A stretch of 40,659 nt of DNA, from IMG/VR virus record IMGVR_UViG_3300038761_000005, positions 1-40,659 of that record; one strand, written 5' to 3'. The notes beneath the pieces were generated by a model that saw only the letters and a program-made list of their open reading frames with translations, ran no database searches and was not told the origin of the DNA. How positions within the stretch are numbered: the stretch's first letter is position 1; every line of letters starts with the position of its first letter. Positions 25,532 through 27,040 of the stretch are shown here, piece by piece. The position numbers and the translations under genes are program-made. The stretch comes from a virus.

Positions 25532-25539
25532 ACCCCACG

Positions 25540-25563
25540 GCCCGCCACTGAGCGGGCTTTTTT
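25540..25563 (+). terminator. Intrinsic terminator inside the late operon
   Basis: GCCCGC-CACTGA-GCGGGC with TTTTTT. It is a good rho-independent terminator directly behind the tail-terminator gene. With those at 23721, 26011 and 31577 it requires read-through in the late operon. Confidence 0.88.
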
Positions 25564-25577
25564 ATGGAGCCGACACC

Positions 25578-25775
25578 GTGAGCTACACCATTGATAAGTC
25601 GCTGAAATGCCTTCAGGAGAAGGTCCAGAGGGCTATCCAGGAATTTCATGAAGAGTCTGGCCATATGTATTCGGTTGGCGTGGATGTGAACAACATGCAG
25701 GTAAATACAATTGGCGAGCGAGTCAGCAAGTACACCAGCATCGTCTCTGTTTCTGCAGAAATTCAAACCAGTTAA
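25578..25775 (+). CDS. Small hypothetical protein before the tail tube gene
   Basis: This 65-aa protein starts at GTG 25578 with a GGAG site 8 nt upstream. It reads VSYTIDKSLKCLQEKVQRAI, then QEFHEESGHMYSVGVDVNNM, and a VSKYTSIVSVSAEI strand. It looks like a small alpha-beta domain and is not recognised. It lies alone between two terminators, just before the non-coding structured stretch, so its message would begin in one hairpin and run into another. Confidence 0.65.
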   Translation: MSYTIDKSLKCLQEKVQRAIQEFHEESGHMYSVGVDVNNMQVNTIGERVSKYTSIVSVSAEIQTS

Positions 25776-25791
25776 AGCCGCTGCGCTCTAC

Positions 25792-26074
25792 CGTCGTGAG
25801 ACGTGGGGGCGCGGTGCATTGATTTGGTCGAGCCGGTGAGACGCGCACCGGGGGAAGCCTTGCGGACTGGGGTGAGAAAGAGACCAGCGCCATCCAGCTA
25901 GCTACTGGGACCAAAGATCCCCGACACCTGGGGCAGAAAAGCGCCTGATCAGCGCGAAGTATCGAGTGGTGTGACTTCCCGGGGGAGAGAACCCGGGAAC
26001 ATTTCCCTGGGCCCGCAATCGCGGGCTTTTTTATTGGCCGTCGTGAGACGCCCAAACGCCCACGTCGTGAGACG
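25792..26074 (+). repeat. Three copies of the hairpin 12-mer CGTCGTGAGACG
   Basis: Exact copies lie at 25792-25803, 26039-26050 and 26063-26074. The first is 16 nt after the stop of the small gene. The last two follow the terminator at 26011-26032 and sit just before the tail tube gene. Each folds as CGTC-GTGA-GACG. The same word with GAGAC also occurs in 23S rRNA helices, so the element may be a general GNRA hairpin module. Confidence 0.7.
26011..26032 (+). terminator. Intrinsic terminator 70 nt before the tail tube gene
   Basis: GCCCGC-AATC-GCGGGC followed by TTTTTT. It closes the structured region and precedes two hairpin repeats and the tail tube ribosome binding site. Confidence 0.9.
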
Positions 26075-26101
26075 CGGCTTTCCCTTTGATGGAGGTTCCC
26101 T

Positions 26102-27040
26102 ATGGGCTGCCCTGCAAATGGCTCTCGCCACTCTATGGCCCTGGTGGCCGAATCTGTTGCCGGTACCACACCGGCAACTCCCGTTTTTACGCCCATCCGG
26201 CAGACCGGCACCACGCTGGCTCTGACCAAGGAGACCATCCAGTCTCAGGAACTGCGCCCTGATCGGCAGATCGCTGACATGCGCCATGGCAACAAGCAGG
26301 TCGGTGGCGACATCAACTGTGAGCTCTCCTACGGCGGCGCCTTCGACACCATGCTGGAGGCGGTGCTTTGCGGCACGTGGGAGGTAGACACCCCTACTGC
26401 AGGCACCGATGAGCTGAAAGCTGGCGTTGTCCGCCGGCCATTCACCATCGAGCGCCACTTTGCCGATATTGGCCAGTACCTGCGCTACAAGGGCTGCGAA
26501 TTCAACACCTGGAACCTGACGGTATCGCCGAACGCGATTATCACCAGCAACTTCGGGCTGATTGGTCGCTCCATGGATGCTCCGGCCCAGACCGCTATCG
26601 CGGGTGCCACTTATGACCCGGGGACCACATCCAGCCCGTTCGACAGTTTCTCCGGAACCATTGAGGAGGGCGGTTCGGCCATCGCCATCATCACCGAACT
26701 GTCCCTCACGCTGGAAAACGGCCTGAGCCCTCTGTTTGTGGTCGGTTCCGATACGGCCGAGTGCATCAGCATTGCCCGGTCGAATCTGTCCGGCTCAGTC
26801 ACTGCCTGGTTCGAATCCGAAGCGCTCTACGAGAAATTCCTCAACGAGACTGAATCCAGCCTGGAATTCACCCTGAGTGATGGCACCAACGCCTACGCAT
26901 TCACACTGCCGCGCATCAAGTACAACAGCGGCCAGCCGGACGTGAGCGGCGAAGGCGAGGTGACCATCTCCATGGACCTGATGGCCCTCTATGACGCAAC
27001 CGAAGAGAGCCAAATCGTTATCACGAAAGGTGCCGCGTAA
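26102..27040 (+). CDS. Major tail tube protein
   Basis: This 312-aa protein is predicted to polymerise into the tail tube. It begins with a Gly/Ser-rich start and the block MALVAESVAGTTPATPVFTP, then IRQTGTTLALTKETIQSQEL followed by RPDRQIADMRHGNKQVGG, typical of the Phage_tube_2 family. The C-terminal half (LEFTLSDGTNAYAFTLPRIK and VSGEGEVTISMDLMALYD) is beta-rich, as expected. A GGAGG site lies 7 nt before the ATG at 26102. Its last base is the first base of the chaperone ATG (TAATG). Confidence 0.9.
   Translation: MGCPANGSRHSMALVAESVAGTTPATPVFTPIRQTGTTLALTKETIQSQELRPDRQIADMRHGNKQVGGDINCELSYGGAFDTMLEAVLCGTWEVDTPTAGTDELKAGVVRRPFTIERHFADIGQYLRYKGCEFNTWNLTVSPNAIITSNFGLIGRSMDAPAQTAIAGATYDPGTTSSPFDSFSGTIEEGGSAIAIITELSLTLENGLSPLFVVGSDTAECISIARSNLSGSVTAWFESEALYEKFLNETESSLEFTLSDGTNAYAFTLPRIKYNSGQPDVSGEGEVTISMDLMALYDATEESQIVITKGAA

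Follow-up and report, generated by a model that had tools for sequence, protein, structure and literature searches.

Tandem GUGA hairpins ahead of virion genes in unrelated phages: a putative intercistronic RNA element

Tandem hairpins of the form C(GUGA)G, with a stem of GUC/GAC or GCC/GGC, were found in 74 clusters of IMG/VR contigs, and in at least 34 of these a virion or packaging gene lay just downstream of the pair. The hairpins look like an undescribed RNA signal for the expression of main virion proteins. The window, by which we mean the whole stretch of DNA analyzed, is a virus record from IMG/VR (40,659 bases). Three such hairpins lie in its gap at 25776–26101, which separates the tail tube gene from a 65-aa ORF upstream.

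Results

Hairpins and terminators in the window

The sequence CGTCGTGAGACG occurred as three exact copies on the + strand (25792–25803, 26039–26050, and 26063–26074), as an earlier note on this DNA had counted, and a search of both strands of the 40.7-kb window with up to two mismatches returned no further match. The loop was GUGA in 3/3 copies, which bore out the earlier reading of the repeats as GNRA-loop hairpins. A partial copy, GTGAGACG, was indeed present at 25836–25843, but it sits in CCGGTG-AGACGCG-CACCGG and does not form a GUGA tetraloop hairpin.

On the + strand, the tail terminator gene was followed by an intrinsic terminator with a stem-loop and a T-run (terminator 1, 25539–25566), which was the same in relatives, and then by the 65-aa ORF with a GTG start (25578–25775). 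The first hairpin, HP1 (25777–25817), lay directly 3' of the stop codon of this ORF and had two tiers, the upper stem being CGUC-GUGA-GACG with its core at 25792–25803. It was followed by a non-coding insert of 181 nt (25823–26003) with a stable hairpin at its end (25976–25999), and by a second intrinsic terminator (terminator 2, 26009–26034) consisting of a stem at 26009–26028 and a T-run; the terminator that had been proposed within the gap was thus real. HP2 (26034–26055) and HP3 (26058–26078) both had CGUC-GUGA-GACG as the upper part, with cores at 26039–26050 and 26063–26074, above a C-C mismatch and a lower stem in HP2 and a small internal loop and a lower stem in HP3. The array directly preceded the tail tube gene (26102–27040, assigned to phrog_290), whose ribosome binding site GGAGG was located at 26091–26095.

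The gap had also been described as a structured region. This held for the local hairpins, which folded better than shuffled sequences (z = -2.4 for HP1, -2.35 for HP2 with HP3, and -3.6 for the hairpin at the insert end with the terminator), but not for the region as a whole, which folded no better than shuffles (z = +0.27) and was rejected as a single structured RNA. Searches of Rfam 15 with the window and with 14 carrier loci gave no family at the gathering threshold, in agreement with the earlier failure to match a described family; the best sub-threshold match in the window was to the terminator-like SdsR, at 24.5 bits versus a threshold of 38. No conserved protein was found in the frames of the gap tested on both strands, none of which matched PHROGs or PADLOC, and the 65-aa ORF had no significant match in Pfam or PHROGs. 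Two long antisense open frames on the - strand (25723–26238, 171 aa; 25949–26458, 169 aa) span the gap; neither matched a known family, and they probably arose by chance in G+C-rich DNA.

A modular block in the tail operon of close relatives

We compared the window with 32 loci carrying a related tail tube (72–98% identity). In 17 of them the arrangement was simple, consisting of the tail terminator gene, one intrinsic terminator, the ribosome binding site, and the tail tube gene, and terminator 1 was the sole element ahead of the ribosome binding site. GUGA hairpins were present in the other 15, so that they were kept in about half of the close relatives; the hairpin element of the window is one allele, which the remaining half lacks. 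Because near-identical phages do without it, the element is not essential for tail tube expression.

In the carriers the block ran in the order terminator 1, small ORF, HP1, an optional insert of 181 nt, terminator 2, HP2, HP3, and ribosome binding site. The slot of the small ORF held members of two families or was empty (L018/L058 and L026/L059), and the ORF found there in the window and in L022, L003, and L021 was swapped or absent in close relatives, as in a moron slot. The fold of HP1 was intact in 7/7 alleles despite base changes. The position of terminator 2 was occupied in relatives by unrelated but equally good terminators, and this replacement supports its function. Since the HP1 fold was kept, terminator 2 was replaced, and the ORF and insert were optional, HP1–terminator–HP2–HP3 forms an independent unit. 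The ORF is a moron-like passenger and the insert a second one, and the element reached the window phage within an accessory block of the tail operon.

The suggestion of a mobile element flanked by its own repeats was borne out in one respect, as the ORF, the insert, and the hairpin array came and went as blocks. The hairpins themselves were unlike transposon ends, because HP1–terminator–HP2–HP3 persisted without the ORF and without the insert. The same block-wise presence and absence would be expected if the repeats played no part in expression and were debris or the borders of a cassette (moron) that had inserted there. We consider this highly improbable, as unrelated phages that have no such cassette carry the same hairpins, with covarying stems, ahead of their coat and tail genes.

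The 181-nt insert

The insert was 97% identical (174/180) between the window and L015/L017, whereas the same comparison gave 80% for the tail tube DNA and 63% for the region upstream of HP1. Either its transfer was recent or strong constraint acts on it. Besides the window, seven IMG/VR records contained it (L008, L011, L012, L015, L017, L020, and L028). The insert gave no match in plasmid records or, searched as part of the gap, in phage records; it matched no protein family, and its fold was not unusual (z = +0.6). It possibly represents a separate small RNA or mobile module, with no known relative. An explanation of the whole locus along these lines would have HP1 and the insert, ended by terminator 2, form a discrete trans-acting phage RNA, the gene-proximal hairpins being secondary. 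The identity of the insert between flanks of only 63–80% and its termination in a hairpin and a terminator fit such an RNA, which could account for the insert yet would leave the hairpins unexplained: many hairpin carriers lack the insert, unrelated carriers have nothing like it, and its fold is ordinary. As an account of the element we regard this as improbable.

Tandem GUGA hairpins across IMG/VR

A scan of IMG/VR for two exact copies of CGTCGTGAGACG no more than 30 nt apart returned 27 loci, several of them in unrelated phages. Wider scans found pairs of GTCGTGAGAC at 56 loci (31 clusters) and of GCCGTGAGGC at 67 loci (43 clusters), the clusters being split by shared k-mers, so that some may share older ancestry. 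These scans took two stems and undercounted the carriers, as GUGA hairpins with another stem (CGCU/AGCG) occurred beside the pairs. A control with a permuted loop, GTCAGTGGAC, gave only 3 loci (2 clusters) versus the 74 GUGA clusters, and control pairs with other loops gave 44 loci in 19 clusters for GTCGAAAGAC (GAAA) and 23 loci in 20 clusters for GTCTTCGGAC (UUCG).

We defined a leader as a pair followed within 80 nt by a ribosome binding site and an ORF of at least 100 aa. GUGA pairs formed leaders in 38/74 clusters in the sense orientation versus 7/74 in antisense, and the corresponding figures for the GAAA, permuted, and UUCG loops were 2/19, 0/2, and 1/20, respectively. Neither stable loop offered a parallel: of the two GAAA leader clusters, the larger turned out to be the conserved end of the upstream gene's coding sequence, and the UUCG pairs were mostly coding repeats. 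One tandem C(UUCG)G pair, in L272, stood 30 nt ahead of a 420-aa ORF and is a possible UUCG version of the arrangement.

The first hairpin core lay 10–49 nt past the upstream stop codon in 19/38 leaders. In most leaders 13–31 nt separated the end of the hairpins from the start codon, and the hairpins abutted the ribosome binding site without covering it. This placement would also suit compact local hairpins that prevent base pairing between the ribosome binding site and the message upstream. The in silico test did not support accessibility as the mechanism: predicted openness of the site was no better in native than in dinucleotide-shuffled leaders (30 leaders, mean gain 0.016, p = 0.18), and the leader of the window ranked low (0.12). 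Insulation of the site is thus quite improbable as the role of the hairpins.

Three to four GUGA hairpins stood in an array at several loci (L150, L172, L147/L149, and L115), where the stems were GCC/GGC, GCU/AGC, GUC/GAC, or GUU/AAC and the loop was common to all; in L150 and the L115 prophage these arrays stood ahead of the gene for the terminase small subunit. In the Verrucomicrobia MAG JANYDN01 (L110, L111, L112, L114, and L117), pairs of CGTCGTGAGACG occurred at five or more places in a GTGGCCGC...GTGGA-like context, and they appear to be a GUGA hairpin repeat dispersed through the host genome.

Genes downstream of the hairpins

Genes downstream of the pairs were assigned with PHROGs and Pfam, and the virion or packaging genes comprised 16 for major coat proteins, 10 for major tail proteins, 5 for terminases, and 3 others. 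A major head or coat gene followed the hairpins in L004, L005, L016, L025, L123, L130, L132, L143, L148, L155, L163, L176, L191, and L204; L211 had a PM2-type coat P2 gene and L002 a leviviral coat gene at this position. Major tail genes followed in the window group, L007, L128, L151, L165, L170, L182, L186, L192, and L196, terminase genes in L122, L150, L173, L167, and L168, and genes for decoration, scaffold, or structural proteins in L129, L169, and L134. About half of the 74 clusters had no assigned virion gene downstream. Pairs also preceded families of unknown function in L190, L212 (phrog_8234), and L183 (phrog_13692); position and size suggest that phrog_8234 is a major tail protein and phrog_13692 a coat protein, and a sequence search of the PDB gave no match for either.

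In a Mesorhizobium genome, a loose tandem pattern had forward matches only ahead of a prophage capsid-like gene, and a looser pattern applied to 385 genomes of the same class gave scattered matches, the prophage capsid site being the sole clear one. A host search with the tail tube protein covered 369 genomes belonging to the same class as an Oceanospirillaceae MAG and found no match at E 1e-80. Isolated-phage orthologues of four carriers, covering 10 regions, had a GUGA hairpin array ahead of the coat or tail gene in 0/10, and the hairpins were not found in more distant leviviruses (about 40% coat identity) or in three corticoviruses.

Covariation of the stems and occurrence in RNA phages

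For two base pairs outside the searched core, Watson-Crick pairing was observed in 24/34 and 17/34 members of one set, versus 16.5 and 9.6 expected by permutation, and in 36/42 and 30/42 members of the other, versus 22.3 and 10.6; these permutations ignore any older ancestry shared between clusters. The lower stems had a mean score of 2.17 versus 0.85 for shuffled flanks, with a maximum of 1.43 among 200 shuffles. Several unrelated carriers had a two-tier first hairpin like HP1, and third and fourth hairpins with CGCU/AGCG stems kept the GUGA loop.

L002 also codes for an RNA replicase. Its coat protein matched the PhiCb5 coat model at E 1.5e-4, under the curated cut-off of that model, and its closest GenBank relative, at 88% identity, is annotated as a leviviral coat. 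In the orthologous RNA phage BK013831 (Vindevirus) the second hairpin is CGCC-GTGA-GGCG, and in L002 it is CGTC-GTGA-GACG, a compensatory change in the stem with the loop kept. Leviviruses are ssRNA phages with no DNA stage, and therefore the element must work as RNA there.

The palindromic arms, and the spacing of 24 bp between two copies, are what an inverted-repeat operator, a part of a promoter, or an antitermination site might show at the DNA level. Such roles cannot explain the leviviral copies, as there is no DNA stage, and many carriers have little or no room for a promoter. The asymmetric GTGA is moreover invariant while the arms vary with compensation, which points to an RNA rather than a DNA element; a DNA-level signal is scarcely credible.

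Discussion

The reading we favor, tentatively and at somewhat less than even confidence, is that the hairpins serve as an intercistronic mRNA element that acts in cis and probably stabilizes the downstream message. On this reading the gene for an abundant virion protein is carried on a polycistronic message, and the hairpins immediately precede its ribosome binding site. After cleavage of this message, or after read-through of terminator 2, HP2 and HP3 would shield the 5' end of the downstream message and HP1 the 3' end of the upstream message, and the outcome would be a longer-lived mRNA segment for a major virion gene. The recurrence of GUGA pairs with covarying stems in unrelated phages, where they stand in sense orientation ahead of coat and tail genes, is consistent with this, and the role in tail tube expression that the earlier note had considered is supported as the best reading of the sequences. 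Against it stand the sporadic occurrence of the element, which was missing from 17/32 close relatives and from all 10 isolated-phage orthologue regions, the roughly half of the clusters that have no assigned virion gene downstream, and the poorer fit of end protection to an internal position in an ssRNA genome. Stability alone also leaves the lack of similar use of GAAA unexplained.

GAAA is a loop of comparable stability, and the preference for GUGA suggests that the loop may in addition be recognized, with a host factor and the ribosome platform as candidates. Were it the whole explanation, recognition of the loop, whether by a protein of the host or by the ribosome itself (through docking of structured mRNA on the 30S platform, for instance, perhaps in imitation of 16S rRNA helix 35), would raise translation initiation and not mRNA life. 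The scarce use of GAAA and UUCG, the distance of 13–31 nt to the start codon, the occurrence in an RNA phage, and the retention of the loop on third and fourth hairpins with other stems would all fit. No binding partner is known, though, and helix 35, which we take to have a GUGA hairpin resembling that of the element, would agree only in the loop and the first two pairs; the three genomes searched gave no 16S match. We consider translation initiation through the loop unlikely as an alternative to message stabilization. It is doubtful, if a little less so, that three realms (tailed dsDNA phages, PM2-like dsDNA phages, and ssRNA leviviruses) independently acquired the same tandem C(GUGA)G signal in front of their major virion genes because a conserved bacterial factor reads GUGA and raises expression of the downstream gene.

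We found no published description of the element in the open-licence literature, which is weak evidence of absence. If the interpretation is correct, a short RNA signal for the most abundant proteins, common to phages of very different origin, went unnoticed, perhaps owing to its sporadic occurrence and its absence from the isolated relatives checked. The element would then be a compact, transferable expression element and a handle on any bacterial factor by which GUGA hairpins are read, and it would mark virion genes at the RNA level in uncultured phages, including ssRNA phages.

Comparison with known systems

In the morons of lambdoid phages, an optional gene lies between terminators in a structural operon. 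The window resembles them at 25539–26034, where the ORF at 25578–25775 is present or absent between otherwise colinear neighbors; the terminator of such a cassette was present, and a simple scan revealed no sigma-70-like promoter. Unlike a moron, the GUGA array stays in place at loci that lack the gene, and unrelated phages have the array but not the gene. The put RNA of HK022 is tandem and lambda boxB has a GNRA-like fold, and both act on RNA polymerase in early operons. The GUGA hairpins share with them the nature of phage RNA hairpins and the tandem (put) or GNRA-like (boxB) form, but action on the polymerase cannot explain the copies in RNA phages.

The coat-protein operator of ssRNA phages (MS2 type) is a small hairpin near the replicase start codon. 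The GUGA hairpins are likewise small, contain a mismatch, and lie near a phage start codon, whereas they precede the coat gene and not the replicase gene and have GUGA as the loop. They are also common to phages with unrelated coat proteins, which argues against binding by the phage's own coat protein.

REP/BIME elements, other intercistronic stabilizers, and the intercistronic hairpins of phiX174 lengthen the life of one segment of a polycistronic mRNA. The GUGA hairpins share the intercistronic position and would stabilize a segment in the same way; REP elements are found on chromosomes, mostly on the 3' side of genes, whereas the GUGA hairpins are 5' of virion genes and have a fixed loop. 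C(UUCG)G hairpins reportedly occur in the intercistronic regions of T4, where Tuerk and colleagues are said to have described them in 1988. Like these, the window hairpins are short, are capped by a stable tetraloop, and lie between phage genes of one message. They differ in the loop, which is GUGA in every window copy and not UUCG closed by C-G, and in being tandem just ahead of major virion genes in unrelated phages including ssRNA phages, a position in which UUCG pairs were rare (1/20 clusters with a leader). By its loop the element is not a member of the T4 group, and by analogy it may work as intercistronic stabilizing hairpins such as C(UUCG)G do.
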